64,000 nucleotides of DNA, from contig VHBC01000005.1 of NCBI GenBank assembly GCA_016872115.1, forward strand, positions 1 through 64,000. Reading direction: 5' to 3'. Both the position numbers and the translations under genes were made by a program. The notes under the pieces are model-generated. The model was not told where the DNA came from. It saw only the letters and a list, made by a program, of their open reading frames with translations, and ran no database searches. Below, piece after piece: positions 172-60,991 of this stretch; position 1 is the stretch's first letter; the number at the start of each line of letters is the position of its first letter. The stretch comes from Sphingomonadales bacterium (lineage in GTDB: Bacteria; Bacteroidota; Bacteroidia; Flavobacteriales_D; Crocinitomicaceae).

Positions 172-202
172 TTGGCGCAAGATTGAATTATCCTTATTTT
201 TG
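172..202 (+). promoter_or_regulatory. Bacteroidota-type promoter (TTG-N20-TAttTTTG)
   Basis: TTG at 172-174 is followed after 20 bases by TATTTTTG at 195-202, matching the Bacteroidota sigma consensus TTG / TAnnTTTG with normal spacing. Transcription would start near 207-210. The TTG codon at 183 is therefore upstream of the transcript, and the ATG at 228 is favoured as start of the next gene. Confidence 0.65.
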
Positions 203-227
203 TAGTATGTCACTAAAATCACAACCA

Positions 228-14294: not shown

Positions 14295-14302
14295 TAATTT
14301 TG
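14295..14302 (+). promoter_or_regulatory. -7 box (TAatTTTG) for mfd
   Basis: TAATTTTG matches the -7 consensus and ends nine bases before ATG 14312. This places transcription start almost at the start codon and excludes the upstream in-frame codon at 14231. Confidence 0.6.
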
Positions 14303-18851: not shown

Positions 18852-19235
18852 ATGATTCGTGCATTTGTATTTGGATTAATAAGCGCAACGCTTTCTTCGG
18901 TAGTCATCGGATTTTTCCTGAATTACTTCTATTCTTTTGAGTTTGATGAAACAATTAAAATACTTCCGATTTGGAAGGTTGTTTTATTTTACTTTATTAT
19001 TTCACTTACCCTTACTATTGCCTCTTATTGGATAGAAATGAAATGGCAAAACAAAGGGCTATTTGCACTCAATTCAACAGTGAGTTTCATCTCAGTTGCA
19101 GCAATGGGTGTTCCGTTGAAGTATACCAATACAGAAATTGACACTACATTTCTACCGATTGTGGCCATCCCATGTTTATTTGTCTTACCACTGATTTTAT
19201 TGTCTTTTCAACCTTTGCTTTTTTTGAAAAAATAG
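18852..19235 (+). CDS. Small four-helix membrane protein, unknown
   Basis: 127 residues with four predicted transmembrane segments (about 5-25, 42-62, 72-90 and 103-123) and two short charged loops. I recognise no family. It starts nine bases after the second YceI stop and is followed by a strong terminator, so it is the last gene of the YceI operon. Some YceI genes neighbour cytochrome b561-type membrane proteins, but this protein has no visible paired haem-ligand histidines. It may be a membrane partner of the YceI proteins. Confidence 0.6.
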   Translation: MIRAFVFGLISATLSSVVIGFFLNYFYSFEFDETIKILPIWKVVLFYFIISLTLTIASYWIEMKWQNKGLFALNSTVSFISVAAMGVPLKYTNTEIDTTFLPIVAIPCLFVLPLILLSFQPLLFLKK

Positions 19236-19256
19236 AACGTTTTGGCATAAATCTTG

Positions 19257-19285
19257 AAAAGGATGCTTCGGCATCCTTTTTTTTT
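19257..19285 (+). terminator. Rho-independent terminator of the YceI operon
   Basis: AAAA GGATGC TTCG GCATCC followed by a run of nine T. A perfect six-base stem (ten with A/T flanks) with a UUCG tetraloop. Confidence 0.92.
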
Positions 19286-19339
19286 GAAAAAAACAGTCAA
19301 AAAAGACAACGAAATGCTTTGATTTACGTTAATAACAAG

Positions 19340-21718
19340 ATGTTGCGACGCTTTTATATTTTACTTCTTTATCTTGGGATAGCTATCCCGGTAGTTTTGC
19401 GTGCGCAACTCATTACCAATAACGCATTAAATCCACAAGGATTGGTGCAAAATGTCTTACTTGGCAATGGCGTTACTGTATCAAATGTGACTTATAATGG
19501 CAGTCCTGTCGCTATTGCTCAATTCACCGCTGCTAACACTACACTTGGTATCAACAGCGGTATTGTACTTACGACCGGTACTACTTTACCCAATGGCGAT
19601 GGTCCGCAAGGGCCCAATGATGCTTCTGGAGCGGGTGTGGACAACAACATGGGTGGCTTCAATTTACTTTCACAAGCCATTAACGGTACCCAAACCTACA
19701 ATGCAGCTATTTTGGAGTTCGACTTTATTCCTTATGCTGACACCGTCCGTTTCAAATATGTTTTTGGTTCGGATGAATACCCTGAATTTGCACCACCAAA
19801 CAATACCACCTACAACGACGTCTTTGGATTCTTCATATCGGGTCCTGGAATAACTGGTTTTCAGAATATTGCCAAGCTACCAAATGGCGCGGTCGTTTCG
19901 ATCAATAATGTAAACAGTATTACCAATCCCTTTTATTTTGTCAATAATGGCGATGGCAATACGGCCCCATACAACCAGAGCCCGCAGTATATTCAATACG
20001 ACGGCCTCACCAAAGTATTAGAAGCGGTTTCTCAGGTGCAGTGTGGCCAGTCCTATCATTTAATTATTGCCATTGCCGATGTTGGTGACGGCCAATGGGA
20101 CTCAGGTATTTTCTTAGAAGCTGCTAGTTTATCGACCTTGACCCCAGTAGATATCAGCCACACGCTTTCTCAGCAAGTATTTCCTAATCCAGACTGGATG
20201 GCCGAAGGTTGTGTAAGCGCTACTGTAACACTTGAAAGGCAGGCCAACCTTAACCAAGCATTAACTATTCCAATTCAGCTAAGTGGAACGGCAACAAACG
20301 GCATTGACTACAGCGGTGTTCCCTCTAGCATTACATTTGGTCCAGGCCAATCGATGGTTAGTTTTACAATTAACTCATTAACAGATGCCCTCACTGAAGG
20401 CCTAGAAACCCTTATTTTGACATTCCCAATTACCGATCCATGCGGAAATATAACACCATTAGTACTCGACCTATATATCCAAGACAACCAGCCTATGGAA
20501 TTGAATTTGAGCACTTCGGCTATTAGTTGCCCAGGAGATCCTGTTACAATCGTTTCCCAGATAATCGGCGGTTTACAACCATATACATATCAATGGAGTA
20601 CGGGTCAAAATACCGCTAGTATTACATACACGCCAACAGCCACACAAGCCATCTGGCTTTCAGTTATAGATGCTTGTTCTGGTATTCCTGCATACGACAC
20701 TATCATCGTAAGCGTACCTGTTTTTGCACCATTGCAATTACAAACGAGTGCGGATATTACGGAAATCTGCCCCTATATTGAATCCATGATTGGTGTTAGT
20801 GCTTCAGGGGGATCTGGGCAATATAACTACCTCTGGACTACAAATGGTGCGGTAAGCGGCCTAACGGATTCGCTTTTGGTTAATCCGGGTTCGAGTACCA
20901 CCTACTACATCAATGTCTCCGATAACTGTGGCAACACCATTCAAGATTCAATAATTTATACTATCCTGAGTCCGCCGTTGGTTGTTCAGACAAACGGCCC
21001 GTTTGAAATTTGTCCTGGCGATAGCGTTTTACTAACCGTAACTGCGAGTGGCGGCTATGGAAACTATTATCATTTATGGTCAAATCAACAAACTACTGAC
21101 CAAATTTGGGTTGCACCACAAGTATCATCTTCCTATTTTGTCCAAGTGAGCGATGAATGCCAAACCTTTACAGTAATTGGTGTTGCTCAGGTACAAGTAG
21201 TGAAGCCGCTCGCCAATTTTTATATTTTGAGTCAAAATCCGATGCAGGGCTTACCTGTCCAATTTGAAAATGCTTCGGCCAATGCGTGGTCCTATACGTG
21301 GTATTTTGGTGATGGCAATGGTTCGTTTTTAGTAAATCCAAGCCATACGTTTACCAATCCAGGCCCCTACGAAATTACTTTGATAGCCACCGATCAAAAA
21401 GGTTGCTTGGACAGCATTTCCAAATGGATTAACATTGCCCCTGAACGCTATATTTACCTCCCAAATTCATTTACCCCAGATGGCGATGGCCTCAATGAAT
21501 ATTTTTACGGACGCTTTATTGGCCTGATGAGTGCGCGCTTCTATATTTTCAATCGTTGGGGTGAGCAAGTCTTCTTTTCAGATGAACTCAATTTTGTTTG
21601 GGATGCAACTTACGAAGGCACACCAGTACAAGACGGCACCTACACTTGGTATCTCATTTACGAGATAGAGAAAGGCATCTACGAAGACCTGTCAGGTCAC
21701 GTCAACGTGATCCGTTAA
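19340..21718 (+). CDS. T9SS type B cargo with choice-of-anchor-L, Calx-beta-like and PKD domains
   Basis: 792 residues from ATG 19340. The signal peptide ends LRA before QLIT. Residues about 20-270 match the choice-of-anchor L domain (GIVLTTG, a FDFIPYADTVRFKYVFGSDEYPE segment, DVFGFFISGPG). A Calx-beta-like repeat follows (about 290-370, TNGIDY and EGLETLILTF), then Ig/SprB-like repeats with GGxxxYxYxW, a PKD domain (WYFGDGN...HTFTNPG), and a type B sorting domain (NSFTPDGDGLNE, FNRWGEQVF, W-D-A-T, YLIY). Expected at the cell surface through the T9SS, perhaps as an adhesin. The open frame extends upstream to 19172 but passes through the terminator, so it is not coding there. Confidence 0.9.
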   Translation: MLRRFYILLLYLGIAIPVVLRAQLITNNALNPQGLVQNVLLGNGVTVSNVTYNGSPVAIAQFTAANTTLGINSGIVLTTGTTLPNGDGPQGPNDASGAGVDNNMGGFNLLSQAINGTQTYNAAILEFDFIPYADTVRFKYVFGSDEYPEFAPPNNTTYNDVFGFFISGPGITGFQNIAKLPNGAVVSINNVNSITNPFYFVNNGDGNTAPYNQSPQYIQYDGLTKVLEAVSQVQCGQSYHLIIAIADVGDGQWDSGIFLEAASLSTLTPVDISHTLSQQVFPNPDWMAEGCVSATVTLERQANLNQALTIPIQLSGTATNGIDYSGVPSSITFGPGQSMVSFTINSLTDALTEGLETLILTFPITDPCGNITPLVLDLYIQDNQPMELNLSTSAISCPGDPVTIVSQIIGGLQPYTYQWSTGQNTASITYTPTATQAIWLSVIDACSGIPAYDTIIVSVPVFAPLQLQTSADITEICPYIESMIGVSASGGSGQYNYLWTTNGAVSGLTDSLLVNPGSSTTYYINVSDNCGNTIQDSIIYTILSPPLVVQTNGPFEICPGDSVLLTVTASGGYGNYYHLWSNQQTTDQIWVAPQVSSSYFVQVSDECQTFTVIGVAQVQVVKPLANFYILSQNPMQGLPVQFENASANAWSYTWYFGDGNGSFLVNPSHTFTNPGPYEITLIATDQKGCLDSISKWINIAPERYIYLPNSFTPDGDGLNEYFYGRFIGLMSARFYIFNRWGEQVFFSDELNFVWDATYEGTPVQDGTYTWYLIYEIEKGIYEDLSGHVNVIR

Positions 21719-21730
21719 AATCAAGAAAGT

Positions 21731-22699
21731 TTATTCGTTGGAAATAATTTCGAACAACTCGTTGAGGTTTGGCGAAATAATGATCTCGATGCGTCTGTTT
21801 TTGGCTTTATCAGCTGGATCCACCGGATGATATTCACTTCTTCCAGCAGCCATGATTTGTGTTGGTGCCATATTTGAATTGGCGAGCATGAGTTCAACTA
21901 CAGATGTTGCGCGCAGTACAGATAATTCCCAATTGTTCTTGGGAGATACGCTGCTATTGAGTTTATCGGTATCGGTATGGCCTTCAACAACAATTTCTAA
22001 ATCGCGCTCTGTTTCGAGTACCCGAGCTAATTCTACTAAAGCCTTTTTCCCTTCTTCTTCTACTTTCGTTGATCCGGATTGGAAAAGTAATTTAGCTTCA
22101 AGGCTGACATAAATCTTACCATTTTTTTGGACTACAGTGAGACCTTGGTTTTCGAAGTTTCGCAATGCATTTGCAACGCGCGCTTTAAGTAATTGAATTT
22201 TCGCATCTTTTTTACGGATGGCTTCTTCGAGCTCATTGACACGTTTTTCGCGCTCCAACAACAAGGCTTGTTTGGCCTGTAACTCTTGGTCTAGTTTCAG
22301 TAGGGCATCTTCTTTACGCTGAAGTTCTTTGGTTTTTTGTTCAAGTTCAGTTTGGAGCGTCGCTGTTTCTTTGGCACTCAAATTTTTGAGTTTATCAAAA
22401 GAACTTTCGAGGGCTTCATATTGGGCTTCAATGGTTTCTTGTTCGCGCTTGAGTAAGCGAATCTGATTGCCAAGATTATTGGTGTCTCCTCTTAGACGGC
22501 TCACTTCTTTGGCTGCTAAATCATATTTTGTTTGAAGGTCTTTGGAGAGCACTTCGTACTCACTGCTGCTTTTTTTATACTTTGCCAGTTCTTCACTACA
22601 CGCTTTTTCGCGTTCGAGTAATTCATTGTATTTCTTAGAGGGCACGCAGGCAGTAAAAAGGCCCGTAAGCAAGATAGAGAGGAAGAGCAATTTTTTCAT
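21731..22699 (-). CDS. OmpA-family lipoprotein with long coiled coil
   Basis: 322 residues. A lipobox LFTAC places the lipidated Cys at residue 18. A heptad-rich coiled coil (about 25-175) is followed by an OmpA/MotB peptidoglycan-binding domain (about 195-315) with VVEGHTDTD, NWELSVLRATSVV and AAGRSEYHP, including the Asp and Arg that hold diaminopimelate. It should tether the outer membrane to peptidoglycan through a long rod. It stands alone on the minus strand, convergent with the type B cargo gene. A weak CAacTTTG box lies upstream. Confidence 0.88.
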   Translation of the reverse strand: MKKLLFLSILLTGLFTACVPSKKYNELLEREKACSEELAKYKKSSSEYEVLSKDLQTKYDLAAKEVSRLRGDTNNLGNQIRLLKREQETIEAQYEALESSFDKLKNLSAKETATLQTELEQKTKELQRKEDALLKLDQELQAKQALLLEREKRVNELEEAIRKKDAKIQLLKARVANALRNFENQGLTVVQKNGKIYVSLEAKLLFQSGSTKVEEEGKKALVELARVLETERDLEIVVEGHTDTDKLNSSVSPKNNWELSVLRATSVVELMLANSNMAPTQIMAAGRSEYHPVDPADKAKNRRIEIIISPNLNELFEIISNE

Positions 22700-22830: not shown

Positions 22831-22838
22831 TACCTTTG
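22831..22838 (+). promoter_or_regulatory. -7 box (TAccTTTG) four bases before the start codon
   Basis: TACCTTTG, then TGAC, then ATG at 22843. The expected transcription start coincides with the start codon, suggesting a leaderless mRNA. Confidence 0.6.
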
Positions 22839-22842
22839 TGAC

Positions 22843-23412
22843 ATGAGTGCTGCCAAGACCAATCAAAAAAAACTGCAAGAGGCATTTGAACTTCTCGAGC
22901 GTAAAGACCAGGCTTCTTTAAGCGCTGCCTTGGTTATATACAAAGAATACGGTAATCTAAGCATATTACCTACGCTTTTTAATGCATTACAAGGTCGCGA
23001 GCGTACACAGCAGCAACTTATTTTGGGTTTTTTGGCCGATGTAAACGATTCCGATGCAGCAGAAGTTTTTGTAAACTACCTTCAAGACGAGTTAGTGGCG
23101 GACGCGCGTAAACTTATTTTATCAGCAATTTGGAATTCAAAATTGCCTTTTGATGCGCACTTGCCTTTTTTCGTGATGCTTGCCACCCAAGGAGACTATT
23201 TAGAGGCACTGGATTGCCTAACAATTATAGAAAATATGGCGGGTCCGTTTGAAGAGGCCCAATTACTCGAGGCCCAACTATTACTCAAGGAATATATTGA
23301 AGAGCGCGCGCCACAAAGCGATCAAAAAGCTCAAATCATGAGCGAAATTGCTTGGTTTGTAAAAGAACAAAACGAAGGAATAGACGCTGACTTATTAATC
23401 GACAACGACTAA
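22843..23412 (+). CDS. All-helical hypothetical protein, HEAT-like
   Basis: 189 residues without a signal peptide, almost entirely amphipathic helices in pairs of about 35 residues with Leu/Ala periodicity, suggesting a short HEAT- or TPR-like solenoid; the C-terminus is acidic. I do not recognise a named family. It is the first gene of a tight operon with yicC (3 bases), gmk and nadD, and its own TACCTTTG promoter lies directly at the start codon. A cytoplasmic scaffold role is possible but not shown. Confidence 0.65.
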   Translation: MSAAKTNQKKLQEAFELLERKDQASLSAALVIYKEYGNLSILPTLFNALQGRERTQQQLILGFLADVNDSDAAEVFVNYLQDELVADARKLILSAIWNSKLPFDAHLPFFVMLATQGDYLEALDCLTIIENMAGPFEEAQLLEAQLLLKEYIEERAPQSDQKAQIMSEIAWFVKEQNEGIDADLLIDND

Positions 23413-26379: not shown

Positions 26380-26387
26380 TACCTTTG
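26380..26387 (+). promoter_or_regulatory. -7 box (TAccTTTG) four bases before the start codon
   Basis: TACCTTTG, then CGCT, then ATG at 26392: the same layout as at 22831, suggesting a leaderless mRNA for DUF4286-rsmA. Confidence 0.6.
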
Positions 26388-26391
26388 CGCT

Positions 26392-26706
26392 ATGGTAATA
26401 TACAATGTAACGGTCAGTATAGATCTGGCTGTAGCAAAAGAATGGCTGAGCTGGATGCGTTCAAAACACATCCCAGATATCCTAAAAACAGGCTGTTTTT
26501 TGGAGTGCAGGCTCTCAAGAGTAAAAGGTGAAGAAGAGGGCGGGCTTACTTATTCAGTGATGTATTTGGCCAAAGATCAAGCTACTTTAGATAGATACCA
26601 ATCGGAATTTGCCCCCGACTTACAACAAGAACATTCGTTGCTTTATCAAGGTAAATTTGCAGCTTTCCGAACTACCCTTGATCTTATTGACGCTTTTAAA
26701 CCATGA
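26392..26706 (+). CDS. DUF4286 family protein
   Basis: 104 residues matching the Bacteroidota DUF4286 family: an opening IYNVTVSID strand, WLSWMRSKHIPDIL, then CRLSRV and a C-terminal FRTTLDLI. The fold looks like a small ferredoxin-like alpha/beta domain. Its function is not known. The stop overlaps the rsmA ATG (ATGA), so it is translationally coupled to rRNA methylation; a link to ribosome maturation is only suggested by that. Confidence 0.85.
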   Translation: MVIYNVTVSIDLAVAKEWLSWMRSKHIPDILKTGCFLECRLSRVKGEEEGGLTYSVMYLAKDQATLDRYQSEFAPDLQQEHSLLYQGKFAAFRTTLDLIDAFKP

Positions 26707-27482
26707 GTGTCAAACCAAAAAAACAACTTGGTCAGCACTTTTTAAAGGATGCCGGAACATGTCAAAAAATTGCCAATCAAGTTATCTGGACCGATGCAAC
26801 ACGAAAGGTTCTAGAAATTGGCCCTGGGATGGGCGCCTTGAGCAAGTACTTGTGGGCACTTCCTGAAATTGATTTGTGGTTGCTCGATGTAGACATCGAA
26901 TCCATCGATTATCTCAGGGCCTATTACCCAACACAAGCTGAGCGCATTTTATTTGGTGATTTTTTGCGATTGAACCCTGCTGAACTCTTTGATCAAGATC
27001 CGTTTATCGTGGTTGGAAATTTTCCTTACAATATTTCTTCTCAAATTTTATTTAAGTGCCTTGAATACCGCAACCAAATACCTCAAATAATGGGAATGTT
27101 CCAAAAGGAGGTAGCGGTTAGGGTGGCTCAAAAACCAGGCTCCAAAGAATATGGCATTATTAGTGTTTTATTGCAAACCTTCTATGACATACATTACTGT
27201 TTTACGGTAGATGAACATGTATTTATACCGCCTCCAAAAGTTAAGAGTGGTGTTATCAGATGTGTGCGCAACCAAAGAAGCGCTTTGCCTTGCGATGAAA
27301 AATTGTATTTTCAAGTAGTGAAAGCAGCTTTTAATCAGCGGCGTAAAACCCTCCGTAACTCGCTGCGTGTATTGCTTAAAGATGCGCCGTTACCCGAAAA
27401 ATTTGAACAACAACGACCCGAAAGACTTAGTGTCGAAGACTTTATCGAACTCACTTGTTTTATTGAACAACTTGCCAATTAA
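26703..27482 (+). CDS. rsmA: 16S rRNA dimethyladenosine transferase
   Basis: 259 residues. RsmA (KsgA) dimethylates the two adjacent adenosines near the 3' end of 16S rRNA with S-adenosylmethionine. Seen: KKQLGQHFLKD at the start, motif I EIGPGMGALSKYL, motif IV NFPYNISSQILFK, the VFIPPPKVKSGVIR stretch and the RRKTLRNSLR C-terminal segment. Length is typical. The last four bases overlap the convergent repeat-protein gene. Confidence 0.96.
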   Translation: MSVKPKKQLGQHFLKDAGTCQKIANQVIWTDATRKVLEIGPGMGALSKYLWALPEIDLWLLDVDIESIDYLRAYYPTQAERILFGDFLRLNPAELFDQDPFIVVGNFPYNISSQILFKCLEYRNQIPQIMGMFQKEVAVRVAQKPGSKEYGIISVLLQTFYDIHYCFTVDEHVFIPPPKVKSGVIRCVRNQRSALPCDEKLYFQVVKAAFNQRRKTLRNSLRVLLKDAPLPEKFEQQRPERLSVEDFIELTCFIEQLAN

Positions 27483-29189: not shown

Positions 29190-29852
29190 TTAAATAAAAC
29201 TGCGGAAAATAAAGAAGAGACCAAAGCTGATAAATAGCATTCCGATGATCTTGTTGATCACATTAAGTAATTTTTCGGTGACCAAATTTCTGATTTTTTT
29301 GGCCGCAGAAATTTTGATAATGTCAAAAGCAAAGTAGGTGAGTAAGACGAAACCGAGATAGAAAAATAAAAATAAATTCGTATCGTTTGGACTTTCGCGT
29401 TTGGCCACTGACGCAACACTTAACCAATAAAATACGACGAGCGGATTGGCAAAGTTCAGTAGGAAACCTTTTGCAATGAGGAGTCCAAAATTCTTTTTAG
29501 GGTCGGCACTTTCTTTGAGATGGTATTTTTCGGTTACGTCTTCTAGCTCTCGGTCTCCGTCGTGTATTTTTGTTTTCTTGATGAGATTCACTATGCCATA
29601 AACGATAAATATAAGCCCACCTAAACGATCAAAAAGCTCTTTGTTTTCTCCTGAAAGCAAAGTATTGATTTGTTCTACAAATAAGACAGCGAGTAAAATA
29701 TATACCACATCGCTAAGTATGACCCCCAGATCAATGGCTAAAGCGCTGCGGATACCTTTTGTGATGCTCTTCTCGAGTAGAACAAAAAATACAGGACCTG
29801 GCATTATTGAAAGAATTAGGCCAATGGTAAAGGCGTGGAAAAACATATCCAT
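29190..29852 (-). CDS. LysE family exporter
   Basis: 220 residues with six predicted transmembrane helices. The N-terminal IMPGPVFFVLLEKSIT stretch and LNFANPLVVFYWL in the middle are characteristic of LysE/RhtB amino-acid exporters. The loop between helices 3 and 4 is charged and long (about 95-130). Substrate unknown. A TAAATTTG box sits four bases before the ATG. The MORN-repeat gene follows four bases downstream. Confidence 0.88.
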   Translation of the reverse strand: MDMFFHAFTIGLILSIMPGPVFFVLLEKSITKGIRSALAIDLGVILSDVVYILLAVLFVEQINTLLSGENKELFDRLGGLIFIVYGIVNLIKKTKIHDGDRELEDVTEKYHLKESADPKKNFGLLIAKGFLLNFANPLVVFYWLSVASVAKRESPNDTNLFLFFYLGFVLLTYFAFDIIKISAAKKIRNLVTEKLLNVINKIIGMLFISFGLFFIFRSFI

Positions 29853-29856
29853 GTAA

Positions 29857-29864
29857 CAAATTTA
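29857..29864 (-). promoter_or_regulatory. -7 box (TAaaTTTG) four bases before the LysE start
   Basis: On the minus strand: TAAATTTG, TTAC, ATG at 29852. Consistent with a leaderless mRNA. Confidence 0.6.
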
Positions 29865-33246: not shown

Positions 33247-34467
33247 TTAATCGAACCAAACTTTTTCAAAGAAAGATTGCGGCCTATTGGAGTGAATAAA
33301 TTTGTGCCCCCCGTAGCATTTGATGATGGCAAAATGATTGGCTCCAAACTGAATTTGCACACAATTGAGCCCTTCTGGGTAGGTGTCAGAAAGGCCTTCG
33401 AATACGGTAGAACCGTCGTCTAAGGTTTTTTTGGTAATGCGACCTGCAGTAGGTGGATTGATATAAATACTTGCGATTTCTTCTGGATTCAGGAGTTGAT
33501 CCAAGGGATGAATAACGACTTCATAGGTATTTCCTTGGCCAAGTTCGCGGTAGACTAAACGAACTGTGTTGTCTTGGAGCGTTTCGACAAGAGGTTTACC
33601 TGGAAACTTTGCAACTAAACCAGAAGCGGGGTCAGTCTGAATATATTCTGTTGGTTTTTTAAGTAAGCGTTTGCTTGGAGGCGGTGTAGCGCTGATAGTC
33701 CATTGTACGGGTCTCACTTTGTATCCTTTGGCGCGCAAGAGCTGTAATATACCTTCTTCGCCACCTAAATGCCCTGCACCCACAGCACAAAAGAAGGGCT
33801 GCTGTTTTTTAAGCAAAGAAAGAAGTGTGTCCCGCATTTGGTAATTGCGCTTGACGATTACCTCTTGGTAAAGGCTATCTTGAACGGACAAATAGGATTT
33901 CATAAAACGTTGTAATGCATCGAGGTCACCTCTGAGGTATAATTCAAGAAGTTTTTCTTGGGTGAACGAATTGATTTGGTTATCGATGATCTTTCGTTCG
34001 CTCAGTTTGAATTCATTGGACAACGCGTATTGGTCTTCTAGTTTTTCTAGTGCTATTGTTTTTTTACCAAGTTGTAGAGCAAGTACTTGGAAATAAGCAT
34101 CTAGAAATTGGGGCATGCCATCTTCAGAGCCATAAAGCGTTTTGGAATTTAGTGCAAAGGTTGTGTATGACTTTCCTTGGTTGTCTATGCGCGTTTCGGG
34201 CAGCGTTTTACGGGTATCCATTGCGGAAAAAAGCTGATAAATATCTGTCTCAAGGACTATATTTGGTGCTTGCTCAAAGACAATATAGGTACTATCCGAG
34301 AGATCGAAAAGCGCTCGGTCATTGGCATGAAGTGTGCCGAAAAGGTATGATTTGGCTGCTGATTTTGGCTGCGATATTTCCCACAATAGTTCTTTATCGG
34401 GCTCAATGATTTGTGCACTAAGATTTATATGAATGGGAGTCAATAAAAAGAGCAGGAAAAAATGCAT
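33247..34467 (-). CDS. TraB/GumN family protein
   Basis: 406 residues. Signal peptide ending LSA before QIIE. The TraB/GumN hallmarks are the opening YLFGTLHAND and the later GAGHLGGEEGIL, carrying the conserved His residues of this erythromycin-esterase-like or Tiki-like metalloprotease fold. The C-terminal 130 residues are an extra beta-rich region not found in the shortest members. A periplasmic metal-dependent hydrolase is suspected but substrate unknown. The frame begins with TTG 34470 directly before ATG 34467. It lies between hutI (14 bases upstream) and the AddB-like gene in a minus-strand run. Confidence 0.8.
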   Translation of the reverse strand: MHFFLLFLLTPIHINLSAQIIEPDKELLWEISQPKSAAKSYLFGTLHANDRALFDLSDSTYIVFEQAPNIVLETDIYQLFSAMDTRKTLPETRIDNQGKSYTTFALNSKTLYGSEDGMPQFLDAYFQVLALQLGKKTIALEKLEDQYALSNEFKLSERKIIDNQINSFTQEKLLELYLRGDLDALQRFMKSYLSVQDSLYQEVIVKRNYQMRDTLLSLLKKQQPFFCAVGAGHLGGEEGILQLLRAKGYKVRPVQWTISATPPPSKRLLKKPTEYIQTDPASGLVAKFPGKPLVETLQDNTVRLVYRELGQGNTYEVVIHPLDQLLNPEEIASIYINPPTAGRITKKTLDDGSTVFEGLSDTYPEGLNCVQIQFGANHFAIIKCYGGHKFIHSNRPQSFFEKVWFD

Positions 34468-41028: not shown

Positions 41029-43482
41029 CTAAAAATTTAGGGAGTAGCGCGCTTTAATACCAATAGGGCTTACACCAGGAATTTGATGTGTGGCACGGTA
41101 AACGACATCTATGCGAATCACTTTAAGAATGTTCTCAATACCGACTCCTACTTCGATGTATGGGATGCCATTAAATGGCCGCACAAATTCTGGAATCAGC
41201 ATTTGATCGGCATGTTTAGATGATAAACCACCGAGCATGAAGCGCTCCGTAGTGATGAGTCTTATTTTGGATGCTTTTACAAGCGGAATACGGTCAAAAA
41301 TAAGACCTTCCCAGCGGTTTTCAGCAAAGCCAATCACATAACGATCACTGACAAATTCGATAAAATTGACCATGTTAAAAGTACTGGTGAGCAACCAAAC
41401 AGACTGATTCCCCTCGTGGACTTTTAGAAGCGGATATGCGGTGCTCCCATTAATGTATCCGAGTGTGAAGCCATAGCGCATGCGTCCCAAAACACCAAGC
41501 TGGGTGTTGTGCTCATATTGAAATTCAAATTTTTGGTAGTTGTATTCACTACCTAATATACCTTTGATGCCGAAGACCCCTTGAAACGAAAGAATTGGAT
41601 ATGGCGAGCGCAATGCGGTGCGGTCGAAAGAACCGGATAAGAATTCTTCATCTTTGGTCCAGCGAATTCTTGTTGTAAATTCTGCAGCCGTAAGATTTGA
41701 AAGTTGTATGGTATCTTGTCCAATTAAACGCTGGTACGTTGCCAAGCCAAGCGGCGTATAATTTTTCCATTCGGCTGCCGTATAAACGATGAGGTCTTTT
41801 TTAATGTCTTTTTCAAGGCTTAACCCTGCTTTTTGGACAAAAGTAAGTTTGTCAAAAGGCGCTGTACTCAGAAAGGTAACAAACGAGGTGCCCATTGAGG
41901 CTGCTGTTGGCGATTGCCCTATTTGTTCGATGTCATAGTTGTAATAGGCATTGAGCATTCCTCTTTTCTGAGGTGTGATATTGTATCGAACTCTGACGTT
42001 GTATTTGAAGCGTTCATCACCAAAACCATAAGCGATTCGCCCTCCTAATTCAAGCCTTTTGGAAAAATCATTGGATGTGCGAAGTGCCAATGACATTCGG
42101 AATTTTTCTACAGGGTTCACACTTACCAAAGACGCGGCAGATCCCAATTCTATTTTTTGAATTGGCCAATATCCAGTTGTGGCAAAGTAAGTGAGCTTGC
42201 GCATGTTTTGATAAAATGGTTGCGCTTCCAATGAATCAACCATTGCTTGAATTTGTGTTTCTTGGGTGCTCAACGCAATAGGCCTCATTTTTTCCCATTC
42301 TTCATTGCTCAGGGTTTTGGCATTTGAAACAACCTCAACTGCATTTTCACTTCGATAAAATGCTTCTTCGTGAGGCTGATTGATCATAAAAGTACTCCGC
42401 CTGCTGTATTTTCTACCAATGAGTCCCAAAAATTTGGATTTTTCTGTGACTTTAAAAGAAAGGACCATGTTTTCTTCGGTGAGCATCCAGACCTCTTTTT
42501 GAACTTGTTCAAAGCTTTGTTCAAAATAGAATTCTTGAATGTAATTGAGGTTGGCACCCGGGGCAATATTTGCTTCAATGCGTTTGACGGCATAGGTGGT
42601 ATCGTGGATCCACATATGTCCTTCAAAAACAAGATCTCCGCTGCGTTTAGGGACAAATCGAAGTTTGTAGCACCAATCGGATCCTATAAACGTGGAGTCG
42701 TCGAGGTAAAATTGGTAATACGACCGAGCATAGGGTGCAAGGGGGCTAATGAACGATTTATTGAAAAGGTCGTAGATGTTGTCGTAGATATTGAGTTCGA
42801 GGTACATGTCGCCCAAAAATGGGGTCATTTGCATATTCTCAACACCTGTAATTTTTGTGGCTCCCACCACTTCTTTCTTGAGTTTAGGATCTTTTCTGTA
42901 ATAGTAATCCGAGACGCTTTCAGATAATATTACTGGAAGAAGCGAAGTGTTGTTGGAGTCTGTCTGCAAATAGCTCTTTACTAGGTCAAGGCGATTGACA
43001 ATTGGGTTGTTGAGCAAGCCCGAATCTAGGTTACTGGCATCGAGTTCAATTTTGTTATAAAGGTGACATTGATAAGCACTCAGTTTTTCTTTATTGTTAA
43101 CGTCTTTGTAAGTGATGATCCGCCTGTGCAATTGGGACCCTCTGGTTTCTGTCGGGGCTTTGAGAATAATTTCAGCAATGTCTTTATCCTGAGTAGGCAT
43201 TTTAATGACTAATTCTTGATTTTTGTCCTTATTGATTTTAATGCGTTGCGTCTGATAGCCAAGCAAGCGAAAAAGCAGTGTATCGGTAGGGTAGTAAGTA
43301 CTTAGGTAAAAGTTCCCTAAAGAATCTGACCGCGTACTTATTTTACTGTCAAGAAATTGGATATTGACATCGGACAAGGGCTCACCTTTTTTATCGGTGA
43401 CGCGTCCGCTTACTATGGTTTGTTGGCCAAATGCTGGTGAAATCAAAAAACAAAATAAGCCAAGGAAAATTGGTTTCATCAA
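41029..43482 (-). CDS. DUF5686 protein with carboxypeptidase-regulatory domain
   Basis: 817 residues. Signal peptide ending AFG before QQTI. A carboxypeptidase D regulatory-like beta-sandwich (about 20-105, VSGRVTDKKGEPLSDV) is followed by a long DUF5686 region, ending in a strand-rich C-terminus (Y-x-L-N-F final residues) that suggests an outer-membrane beta-barrel. The layout recalls TonB-dependent receptor-like or Omp85-like proteins without a plug. Function unknown. Its start overlaps the tatC stop by four bases and lptB follows, suggesting a role in envelope assembly, though this is inferred from context. Confidence 0.85.
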   Translation of the reverse strand: MMKPIFLGLFCFLISPAFGQQTIVSGRVTDKKGEPLSDVNIQFLDSKISTRSDSLGNFYLSTYYPTDTLLFRLLGYQTQRIKINKDKNQELVIKMPTQDKDIAEIILKAPTETRGSQLHRRIITYKDVNNKEKLSAYQCHLYNKIELDASNLDSGLLNNPIVNRLDLVKSYLQTDSNNTSLLPVILSESVSDYYYRKDPKLKKEVVGATKITGVENMQMTPFLGDMYLELNIYDNIYDLFNKSFISPLAPYARSYYQFYLDDSTFIGSDWCYKLRFVPKRSGDLVFEGHMWIHDTTYAVKRIEANIAPGANLNYIQEFYFEQSFEQVQKEVWMLTEENMVLSFKVTEKSKFLGLIGRKYSRRSTFMINQPHEEAFYRSENAVEVVSNAKTLSNEEWEKMRPIALSTQETQIQAMVDSLEAQPFYQNMRKLTYFATTGYWPIQKIELGSAASLVSVNPVEKFRMSLALRTSNDFSKRLELGGRIAYGFGDERFKYNVRVRYNITPQKRGMLNAYYNYDIEQIGQSPTAASMGTSFVTFLSTAPFDKLTFVQKAGLSLEKDIKKDLIVYTAAEWKNYTPLGLATYQRLIGQDTIQLSNLTAAEFTTRIRWTKDEEFLSGSFDRTALRSPYPILSFQGVFGIKGILGSEYNYQKFEFQYEHNTQLGVLGRMRYGFTLGYINGSTAYPLLKVHEGNQSVWLLTSTFNMVNFIEFVSDRYVIGFAENRWEGLIFDRIPLVKASKIRLITTERFMLGGLSSKHADQMLIPEFVRPFNGIPYIEVGVGIENILKVIRIDVVYRATHQIPGVSPIGIKARYSLNF

Positions 43483-44258
43483 TCTTCTACTTTTGACGCT
43501 GCTCTTTTAGAGACAATGATGCTCAATTCAAAGAGTATATAAATTGGGATGGTAACGATGATTTGTGATATGATGTCAGGTGGCGTTATTACTGCTGCTA
43601 AGATGAGGATGACGACGATGGCATGTTTTCTATATTTTACCAAAAATGCAGGTGTAAACAGACCTATTTTGACGAGCAGAAAGGTGACAATCGGAAATAA
43701 AAAAAATAATCCGGTGTAAAATACTGTAGATAATATGGTGCTCATGTAAGAAGCAATGGTAACATCAGTTTTAATTTCTGGTGTTATCTGAAACGCACCA
43801 AAAAATTGTACACTAAGCGGCGCTACTACATAATAGCCGAATAAAATCCCAAGGAAAAAAAGTAAACTGACATAAAATACAATTCCTTTAGCCATCTTTT
43901 TTTCATTACTCTTTAAGCCTGGTTTAACAAATGCCCACAGTTGATAAAAGATATACGGAAATGCAAGTACAACACCACCCATGATGCACATCATGAGGGC
44001 ATAAGAAAATTGACCGGCCAGGGTGGTACTTTGGAAATCGACATTGATTGGATCCACACATACTCCTAAATACTGACACATAAGTTTGAAAGTGATGAAG
44101 TCGGCATCAACCATGTTCAAGAAAATGTGCTCCATGATTTCTCGTTGGTAAGTCCAGATGACGACCGCAAAAATAACAACTGCAATTGCCGAACGGAGCA
44201 AACGCCAACGCAGCTCTTCGAGGTGATCTAAAAATGACATTGGCTGGTCTTCAGACAT
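43479..44258 (-). CDS. tatC: Twin-arginine translocase subunit TatC
   Basis: 259 residues with six transmembrane helices. TatC is the receptor that binds twin-arginine signal peptides of folded proteins. The signature SFLDHLEELRWRL near residue 8 and the conserved FPYIFYQLWAFVKPGL in the second helix region are present. No tatA is adjacent. First gene of the tatC-DUF5686-lptB run; a TAATTTTG box sits four bases before its ATG. Confidence 0.95.
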   Translation of the reverse strand: MSEDQPMSFLDHLEELRWRLLRSAIAVVIFAVVIWTYQREIMEHIFLNMVDADFITFKLMCQYLGVCVDPINVDFQSTTLAGQFSYALMMCIMGGVVLAFPYIFYQLWAFVKPGLKSNEKKMAKGIVFYVSLLFFLGILFGYYVVAPLSVQFFGAFQITPEIKTDVTIASYMSTILSTVFYTGLFFLFPIVTFLLVKIGLFTPAFLVKYRKHAIVVILILAAVITPPDIISQIIVTIPIYILFELSIIVSKRAASKVED

Positions 44259-44262
44259 GCTG

Positions 44263-44270
44263 CAAAATTA
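44263..44270 (-). promoter_or_regulatory. -7 box (TAatTTTG) four bases before the tatC start
   Basis: Minus strand: TAATTTTG, CAGC, ATG at 44258. Fits a leaderless mRNA for the tatC operon. Confidence 0.6.
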
Positions 44271-59571: not shown

Positions 59572-60459
59572 ATGAAAAAACCATTTGTCTTCTTCTCTAA
59601 ACGACTCGAACGCGGTACAGTGCTATGGCTAATAGTTTGTGCCATCGTTATCTTTATTCCTAGAATAGAAGCGTATTTTTTTAGCCCCGAGTTTTCTTAT
59701 GAATGGACCTATTTTGAAGAGAAAAAATACAAATTTCAACAGGGTGACACTGAGGAGCATATTCCTTCTAAAAAAAAGGAATATCAAAAATTGTGGAAGG
59801 CATGTCGTCCTGAATCATTGCGTATAAGCGATTGGAAAAAACTCGGCTTGAGTCCCAAACAGGCAGCATCAATGATACGTTACCGCGATAAATATGGTTT
59901 AAAGTCCTATCGACAAATGCAAAGTATACGTGTGCTTCCTCGCGCCCTATTGGAAATCATCAGTGATTCTTTGATTTTCGATGAAGTCAAAGAAAGCAAA
60001 GTCATCATTGAAATCGAGAACTCAAGAATCACAAGCCCCAACAGCGCAAAATCTGATCACCATATCCATCAACTCGATTTGAATGCAGCAACAGAAGCGA
60101 TGCTTGTGGCCTTGCCTGGGGTTGGTGCTTATACAGCTCAAAAAATAATTGCTTACAGAGACCGACTGGGCGGATTTTTAGATGTGAATCAACTGCAAGA
60201 GGTAAGGGGTTTAAATAGCGAGACACTCGAAAAAATCCGCCCTTATTTCGAAATCAATACATCGGTTCAAAAAATCAAGCTCAACGAGGTGAACATTGAG
60301 CGGCTTAAACTACATCCTTATTTAACTTGGAATCAGGCCAATTCTATAATTAAAATGCGCGCACAAAAAGGAAAATTCAGCTCCATAGATGAATTAAAAG
60401 AATCCGTATTAATTGACGAAGAGACGTACAAAAAACTCTTGCCTTATGTATCTTTGTAG
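59572..60459 (+). CDS. ComEA-like helix-hairpin-helix protein, membrane anchored
   Basis: 295 residues. One transmembrane helix near the N-terminus (about 18-35), then three helix-hairpin-helix units (about 85-125, 165-220 and 235-290), each with a DLNAAT- or LNEVNIERL-type start and LPGVGAYTAQKIIAYRD in the clearest one. Such proteins bind DNA non-specifically and resemble ComEA, used in DNA uptake; Bacteroidota homologues are common but untested. The last three codons (Val-Ser-Leu) form the promoter box of apt. Confidence 0.85.
   Translation: MKKPFVFFSKRLERGTVLWLIVCAIVIFIPRIEAYFFSPEFSYEWTYFEEKKYKFQQGDTEEHIPSKKKEYQKLWKACRPESLRISDWKKLGLSPKQAASMIRYRDKYGLKSYRQMQSIRVLPRALLEIISDSLIFDEVKESKVIIEIENSRITSPNSAKSDHHIHQLDLNAATEAMLVALPGVGAYTAQKIIAYRDRLGGFLDVNQLQEVRGLNSETLEKIRPYFEINTSVQKIKLNEVNIERLKLHPYLTWNQANSIIKMRAQKGKFSSIDELKESVLIDEETYKKLLPYVSL
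60449..60456 (+). promoter_or_regulatory. -7 box (TAtcTTTG) four bases before the apt start
   Basis: TATCTTTG lies in the final codons of the HhH gene and is followed by TAGC and the apt ATG at 60461, giving a leaderless arrangement. Confidence 0.6.
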
Positions 60460-60460
60460 C

Positions 60461-60991
60461 ATGACAGTACAAGAACAACTTAAGGCCGTAATACGAGATG
60501 TTCCGGATTTTCCTAAACCAGGCATCCTTTTTAAGGATATTTCTACCATCATGCTCAATCCGACAGTATCCAATGCGGTATTAGATCATTTAGTTGCCAA
60601 ATACCAAGATGCGCAACTAGGTGCAATTGCAGGCATCGAGAGCCGTGGTTTTTTATTCGGCTATCCGTTGGCCATGCGTCTGGGCTTGCCTTTTATTCTC
60701 ATTAGAAAAGAAGGGAAATTACCCTACGACAAAATCAAACATGCCTATGCCTTAGAATACGGCGAGGCAGTTATTGAAATGCATACTGATGCTGTCGAGA
60801 AAGGGCAGCGTGTTCTCATCCACGACGATTTATTGGCAACGGGCGGTTCTGCAGCTGCAGCTGCAACACTTATCGAAAAGAGCGGAGGGGTTGTAGCGGG
60901 TTTTGATTTCTTGGTTGCCTTATCTTTTTTAGATGGCAACAAGGCATTGACCCGATTTAGCAATCAAATTCACTCTATCGTAACTTACTAA
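60461..60991 (+). CDS. apt: Adenine phosphoribosyltransferase
   Basis: 176 residues from ATG 60461. It salvages adenine with PRPP to make AMP. FPKPGILFKDIS near residue 20, GIESRGFLFG near 55 and the PRPP loop VLIHDDLLATGGSAAAA near 115 are all present. The frame extends to 60413 within the HhH gene, but the promoter box and family length favour 60461. Confidence 0.95.
   Translation: MTVQEQLKAVIRDVPDFPKPGILFKDISTIMLNPTVSNAVLDHLVAKYQDAQLGAIAGIESRGFLFGYPLAMRLGLPFILIRKEGKLPYDKIKHAYALEYGEAVIEMHTDAVEKGQRVLIHDDLLATGGSAAAAATLIEKSGGVVAGFDFLVALSFLDGNKALTRFSNQIHSIVTY

Follow-up and report, generated by a model that had tools for sequence, protein, structure and literature searches.

Promoter -7 elements with the consensus TAnnTTTG appear to be placed directly at start codons in this genome, typically four bases upstream of the ATG, and would produce leaderless mRNAs, with 5′ ends that we infer from sequence. 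The probability of this reading is put at roughly 90%. In the proposed mechanism, the boxes would serve as -7 elements of promoters for the housekeeping sigma factor (sigma-ABfr type), RNA polymerase would begin at the A of the ATG or within about one base of it, and the ribosome would take the resulting 5′-terminal AUG directly with initiator tRNA, without any leader, a last step that draws on general knowledge. Since RNA-seq of Flavobacterium johnsoniae places many transcription starts 4–5 nt after the TAnnTTTG box (PMC6847099), a four-base gap would put +1 on the A of the ATG. The initial annotation had proposed that such mRNAs begin at or within the start codon, and this proposal is supported by a peak in box-to-ATG spacing, its replication in held-out sequence, its specificity for the box and its retention among members of the genus. 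The flank resembles that of a promoter, the bases just before the ATG are poor in A and the genes mostly lie at the start of transcription units, all of which points the same way.

The window, that is, the entire 64-kb stretch of DNA that was analysed, lies in a 2.22 Mb, 65-contig assembly. The initial annotation listed five TAnnTTTG-N4-ATG sites in the window, and a strict pattern scan recovered all of them with exactly four bases between box and ATG. The spacing of nine bases given for mfd was likewise recovered. For the two minus-strand sites, each pair of positions in that annotation begins at the final G of the box and extends through the ATG; the actual boxes are at 29864–29857 and 44270–44263. 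The sites and the genes that they precede are as follows.

195–209, plus strand: sixth strict match, absent from the initial annotation; box 195–202, ATG 207
14295–14302, plus strand: -7 box of mfd, nine bases before ATG 14312, a spacing within the low range
22831–22845, plus strand: TAnnTTTG-N4-ATG of the helical gene, from the strict pattern scan
22843–23412, plus strand: 189-aa helical protein without a Pfam or NCBIfam match, predicted leaderless
26380–26394, plus strand: TAnnTTTG-N4-ATG of DUF4286-rsmA, from the strict pattern scan
26392–26706, plus strand: DUF4286 protein (Pfam PF14114, 1e-33), encoded ahead of rsmA in a two-gene unit
26703–27482, plus strand: rsmA/ksgA, 16S rRNA dimethyladenosine transferase (NCBIfam TIGR00755, 228 bits over a cut-off of 171)
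29864–29850, minus strand: TAnnTTTG-N4-ATG of LysE, from the strict pattern scan
29190–29852, minus strand: LysE-type translocator (Pfam PF01810, 6.7e-26), predicted leaderless; box 29857–29864
34480–34473, minus strand: -7 box five bases before ATG 34467 of the gene at 33247–34467 (minus strand)
44270–44256, minus strand: TAnnTTTG-N4-ATG of tatC, from the strict pattern scan
43479–44258, minus strand: tatC (NCBIfam TIGR00945, 167.8 over a cut-off of 132.7), predicted leaderless; box 44263–44270
60449–60463, plus strand: TAnnTTTG-N4-ATG of apt, from the strict pattern scan
60461–60991, plus strand: apt, adenine phosphoribosyltransferase (NCBIfam NF002636, 213 over a cut-off of 125), predicted leaderless

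The spacing-5 gene that starts at ATG 34467 on the minus strand was not on the initial list and fits the same class. Elsewhere in the window (19172–21718) is an 848-aa protein with PKD and Calx-beta domains and a C-terminal CHU_C type IX secretion signal.

Six strict matches in the window compare with a mean of 1.36 in 100 dinucleotide shuffles, none of which reached six (largest 4). The bare box is only mildly enriched (87 versus 70.5, a count reached by 4 of 100 shuffles), and it is therefore the placement of the box that is unusual. The slightness of this bare-box enrichment favours an explanation by chance combined with selective reading of one window, while the shuffles of the strict pattern speak against it. 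That explanation is refuted on a larger scale by the count of first-ATG starts in 864 kb, where 38 of 733 have a box at spacing 4 and 200 dinucleotide shuffles average 0.60 and never exceed 4; with the peak replicated in held-out sequence as well, the likelihood of chance is negligible.

These 864 kb (39% of the genome) comprise the window, a further 400 kb and a held-out 400 kb, and spacings were counted wherever the ATG downstream of a box begins an ORF of 100 codons or more. The count of box-to-ATG gaps across the genome called for in the initial annotation, run on this sample, gives a sharp peak at four bases, and the excess over shuffled sequence on which the annotation's account depended is thus present. 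In the first 464 kb, spacing 4 occurs 27 times, spacing 5 eight times and other adjacent spacings 1–3 times each. The held-out portion replicates the peak, with 14 cases at spacing 4, 9 at spacing 5 and 2–5 at neighbouring spacings. In the whole genome, the TAnnTTTG-to-ATG pattern is matched 121 times with a four-base gap, 70 times with a gap of five and 29 times with a gap of seven.

Among the 735 sampled ORFs, 41 have a box at spacing 4, 19 at spacing 3 or 5 and 97 at 13–36, while for 578 no box lies at any of these distances. For 15 altered or permuted boxes, the corresponding means in the first three of these classes are 1.07, 0.87 and 12.3 ORFs. The variant TAnnTTTA was kept out of that average because it is itself raised (10 at spacing 4, 5 at 3 or 5 and 34 at 13–36). 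Hence, the spacing peak is specific to the TAnnTTTG box, with TAnnTTTA the other raised form among the variants tried. Leaderless candidates, defined by a box at 3–5, are a minority of 60 of the 735 ORFs (~8%); in the rest the box lies farther upstream or is absent from the spacings considered. Spacing-3 cases, some of which are shared within a clade, require a start only three bases after the box. With respect to the start codon at spacing 4, ATG was found 41 times, GTG six times and TTG and CTG not at all, so some leaderless genes may start with GTG. The six GTG cases, counted as starts of ORFs of 100 codons or more, compare with 0–3 at each of the other spacings between 0 and 19.

The distribution of spacings is bimodal. 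When box-ATG pairs within the first ten codons are considered, 58 fall at spacings 3–5 (7, 40 and 11 at 3, 4 and 5, respectively), 22 at 6–13 and 70 at 14–21, the latter two ranges covering eight spacings each. The low zone is not empty, as ORF counts in the 864 kb give 37 at 6–13 versus a control mean of 17.4; the second hump stands at 83 for spacings 14–21 versus 19.9. Given the 4–5 nt from box to start in F. johnsoniae, the first mode would be leaderless and the second would carry leaders of roughly 10–17 nt, with leaders of 2–9 nt scarcer than either mode. The pattern looks as if such short leaders were disfavoured.

The sixth match, at 195–209, illustrates that four-base spacing alone is no proof of leaderlessness. 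A second ATG, at 228, lies in frame 21 bases past ATG 207 (gene 207–1307) and is followed by what looks like a signal peptide. None of 29 other ortholog loci has a box at spacing 4, and for 23 of them the closest ATG is level with ATG 228 or later (one locus is cut at a contig edge, some are paralogs and two overlap). The site was thus rejected as leaderless in favour of ATG 228, for which the box is probably a promoter at spacing 25 that yields a leadered mRNA. Annotation of this gene by longest ORF or by box would misplace its start.

This site is also the best case for a more general reading, namely that the box is a promoter but translation begins at a later AUG, which leaves a short leader. 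Ortholog alignments of the other genes make such an arrangement highly unlikely as a general rule. All 32 DUF4286 loci with a box at spacing 4 align from residue 1, and the nearest ATG is exactly at the start of the window gene in 22 of 30 tatC loci, 27 of 30 apt loci and 24 of 30 LysE loci (own locus included in each). Starts of the tatC, apt, LysE, helical and 207-gene orthologs were taken as the nearest in-frame ATG, a rule that misplaces some of them; two LysE and two helical rows have no ATG, and one helical row is cut at an edge.

Evidence that the start-codon boxes are promoters comes from base composition in 1,197 ORFs of the own genome and the genus, of which 61 have the box at spacing 4, 144 are leadered and 969 have no box. 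A+T content peaks at -16 to -20 from the expected start in both the spacing-4 and leadered sets and reaches 0.89 at -18 in both. Neither set has a peak corresponding to the AT-rich -28 motif of F. johnsoniae. The four bases before the ATG are poorest in A in the spacing-4 set (0.225, versus 0.347 in leadered genes and 0.383 in those with no box). A pyrimidine occupies -1 in 50 of 61 spacing-4 genes, as compared with 96 of 144 leadered genes (p 0.03) and 534 of 969 without a box, while A at -3 does not differ significantly between the spacing-4 and leadered sets (20/61 versus 60/144, p 0.27). Placing +1 five bases downstream of the box in leadered genes gives a weak pyrimidine(-1)/purine(+1) mark (76 and 78 of 144), and for this reason the exact offset from box to start is one taken from the literature and unproven by sequence.

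Spacing-4 genes mostly begin transcription units. Thirty-one of 40 are divergent from their neighbour or lie at least 50 bp after it, versus 204 of 569 no-box genes. These data bear on another explanation, in which the mRNAs are leadered and arise from other upstream promoters, and the TTTG box close to the ATG acts as a signal for translation or for a regulator. The 578 of 735 ORFs without a consensus box at 3–5 or 13–36 imply that other promoters or operon transcription serve most genes, and apt lies directly behind a co-directional gene, both of which favour this alternative. On the other hand, no second consensus box occurs at -100 to -14 in any of the 40 spacing-4 genes, versus 39 of 569 in the no-box class, which by definition excludes boxes at 13–36. 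Like leadered genes, spacing-4 genes also have an AT-rich flank at -16 to -20, but they lack the A-rich stretch before the ATG, and published maps identify TAnnTTTG as the -7 element. On balance, leadered transcripts with a signal of this kind are very unlikely, and a translational element devoid of promoter function was rejected on flank composition together with the gene-position and second-box data.

The window genes differ in how widely the proposed start-codon promoter is shared. For example, the DUF4286 box (26380–26387) lies four bases before ATG 26392 with a divergent ORF upstream, and the start of rsmA overlaps the DUF4286 stop. Among 75 ortholog loci, the box nearest the ATG is at exactly 4 in 32, at 5 in seven and at 3 in six, with no box within the last 60 bases in 25 (the start of one row was misplaced by the script). 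The spacing-4 loci, one of them from the cultured relative Taishania pollutisoli, carry record titles that name several families, and those at 5 or 3 come in groups of similar loci. The best named relatives of the protein have 74–78% identity and belong to metagenome-assembled genomes labelled Cryomorphaceae, Crocinitomicaceae, Flavobacteriia and Flavobacteriales, with one named Chryseobacterium gleum, which would place the uncultured source of the window within the Flavobacteriales, close to Crocinitomicaceae.

The helical gene, whose upstream ORF (21731–22699) is divergent, was matched in 39 of 40 genomes searched, own included. Of 30 loci, also including its own, eight have the box at 4 and nine at 11–23. 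All seven other loci with at least 64% identity and readable upstream DNA have spacing 4, and the nine with a box at 11–23 are of lower identity, from which it appears that genes switch between the leaderless and leadered classes.

Counts for the remaining three genes are likewise out of 30 loci with their own included. For LysE, 17 have the box at 4, three at 5, two at 3 and one at 6, and none of six loci outside the genus has spacing 4. For tatC, 12 are at 4 and three at 6, and in seven more loci, all close relatives, TAnnTTTA replaces TAnnTTTG at spacing 4. For apt, 19 are at 4, two at 5 and two at 3, with none of seven at 4 outside the genus. Conservation of the apt box (60449–60456) is partly explained by protein coding, as it overlaps the end of the co-directional upstream ORF (59572–60459) and, in close relatives, sequence that encodes the C-terminus of that gene's product. 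Two relatives with unrelated upstream sequence still have the box, at three bases. Almost all of the spacing-4 loci of tatC, helical, apt and LysE belong to the genus; taken together, the four genes have spacing 4 in one of 25 loci from the other families of the order, a tatC.

A broader ortholog sample, not chosen for the window genes, was classed by the spacing of the own gene; it used 200 of the 578 no-box genes and dropped hits with poor N-terminal coverage, low identity or a position too near the locus end. Among orthologs of own spacing-4 genes, the four-base gap recurs in seven of nine cases in the genus (six distinct genes), in the single case from the family and in neither of two from elsewhere in the order. 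One of the two misses in the genus is the doubtful 195 site. Orthologs of leadered genes have spacing 4 in 0 of 25 cases in the genus, one of 11 in the family and none of four in the order, and 15 of the 25 in the genus have a box at 13–36. For no-box genes, the corresponding spacing-4 values are 0/36, 0/5 and 0/6 in genus, family and order. The own spacing-3 and spacing-5 genes have an ortholog at 4 in the one genus case and in none of three from the family. Four-base spacing would therefore seem to be conserved gene by gene within the genus and often lost outside it.

The genus is also richer in start-codon promoters than most of the sampled relatives. The size of the difference varies with the comparison made, from a factor of ~1 (genus versus order, spacings 4 and 5) to one of ~5 (genome-wide counts versus class). 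Genome-wide excess was measured against the same box at spacing 7 or against the reversed pattern, the latter applied to the family too. Versus spacing 7, the excess per Mb is 41 in the own genome and 40 in a second genus member, while 47 sampled class genomes outside the genus have a median of 8.2 (quartiles 6.2–11.5, highest 32.0). In every one of these 47, spacing 4 exceeds spacing 7 (4,894 versus 3,060 in all). The highest value among them belongs to G233, a 2.0 Mb genome of another family. Versus the reversed pattern, 11 genus genomes have a median excess of 36 per Mb (lowest 26), as compared with 16.3 in 109 genomes of the family's other genera, six of which reach 26, and 7.3 in the same 47 class genomes. 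A weaker excess extends to 149 genomes of other classes, with 5,379 at spacing 4 versus 4,414 at spacing 7 and more at 4 in 102 of them. Two- to threefold excesses were observed outside the class in one eight-genome family (f23; 329 versus 130) and one genome of another family (f35).

In sampled stretches, ORF-based counts at spacing 4 per Mb are 45 for the own genome, 32 for the genus, 16 for the family and 16 for the order; for spacings 4 and 5 combined they are 61, 34, 23 and 31, respectively. Counts in the order's other families thus differ only two- to threefold from the own genome. A claim of five times the class median density was softened in view of this smaller ORF-based contrast and the intermediate values of the family's other genera.

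NCBIfam scans covered 39 of the 41 genes with the box at spacing 4 (the two omitted cross a stretch edge), and those over the cut-off include genes for release factors 1 and 2, SmpB, TrmD, MnmA and RbfA, along with MenD, PurT, PurK, LpxD, GpsA, NadC, RdgB, DeoC, PyrE, Apt and TatC. RsmA is second in the DUF4286 spacing-4 unit. These look like housekeeping genes of modest demand. A bolder and, in our estimation, unlikely extension is that the genus runs two discrete initiation modes with leaders of 2–9 nt selected against. A conserved low-demand housekeeping set, several of whose members serve the translation machinery (the rsmA operon, rbfA, prfA, prfB, smpB, trmD and mnmA), would then be kept leaderless to stay translatable when leadered 30S initiation is impaired. 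If so, leaderlessness would define a regulatory class instead of reflecting where a promoter happens to lie.

The initial annotation had also linked leaderless mRNAs to poor use of Shine-Dalgarno pairing in the phylum, and here the connection is weak. SD-like motifs are not enriched before starts (30/733 near the start versus 51/733 farther up, across all sampled genes). Most of the 735 ORFs have no consensus box at 3–5 or 13–36 (578) or have it at 13–36 (97), and the 60 candidates do not make up enough of the total to explain why SD sequences are missing. The authors of the F. johnsoniae study likewise state that leaderlessness cannot explain this lack (PMC6847099). In the 16S gene, CACCTCCTTTCT is retained close to the 3′ end (Rfam match), and many Bacteroidia are reported to keep the same 16S tail (PMC10783764).

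In the Bacteroidota, mapped leaderless mRNAs are few and ribosomes make little use of Shine-Dalgarno pairing, which raises the question of how start codons are chosen. With many start-codon promoters, a placement conserved for individual genes across its members and a sparsely populated zone that separates the leaderless from the leadered class, this genus would lend itself to the study of 5′-terminal AUG initiation in Bacteroidia. A box four bases upstream may also help to fix start codons during annotation, with the caution advised by the 195–209 site. In the open-access literature searched, no report was found of the spacing peak or of leaderless mRNAs in Crocinitomicaceae, nor of the higher density in the genus, the two-mode spacing or the gene-by-gene conservation within it.

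Leaderless mRNAs as such are already known in the phylum, having been mapped in Flavobacterium psychrophilum, F. johnsoniae and Bacteroides thetaiotaomicron (PMC6847099, PMC9723704, PMC7366714), species that share with the present genome both phylum and the TAnnTTTG -7 element. Few were reported in these mapped members: the three studies together give 5.5% leaderless among mRNAs before 890 CDSs, leaders of ≤10 nt in 13% of transcripts with probable promoters and ~3.7% of leaders at <10 nt, and leaders in F. johnsoniae average 33 nt (PMC6847099). In contrast, exact-consensus boxes at 3–5 are found here in 60 of 735 ORFs, or 60 of the 157 with a box at 3–5 or 13–36, a contrast that is only indicative since denominators differ and boxes beyond 36 bases are uncounted.

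Two genomic surveys are also relevant. Zheng et al. (2011; PMC3160421) described TA-led genes, in which leaderlessness is inferred, much as here, from a -10-like box ~10–12 bp before the start codon, and found many leaderless genes in Actinobacteria and Deinococcus-Thermus. Unlike the present analysis, that survey used the motif TANNNT; it called leaderless genes in one of 37 Bacteroidetes/Chlorobi genomes, and, as its authors acknowledge, promoters of other types could have escaped it. A second survey (PMC5397173) suggested leaderless mRNA and/or ribosomal protein S1 as the initiation route for the non-SD genes of Bacteroidetes; it describes average base frequencies rather than a promoter box at fixed spacing in named genes.

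With respect to promoter architecture, F. johnsoniae is described as having AT-rich regions near -18 and -28 (PMC6847099), while its -33 TTTG element is reported as weak or not identified. The candidates described here would share with the sigma-ABfr promoters of Bacteroidia the -7 element and the AT-rich flank near -18 and, unlike the usual promoters of this type, would be placed at the start codon itself.
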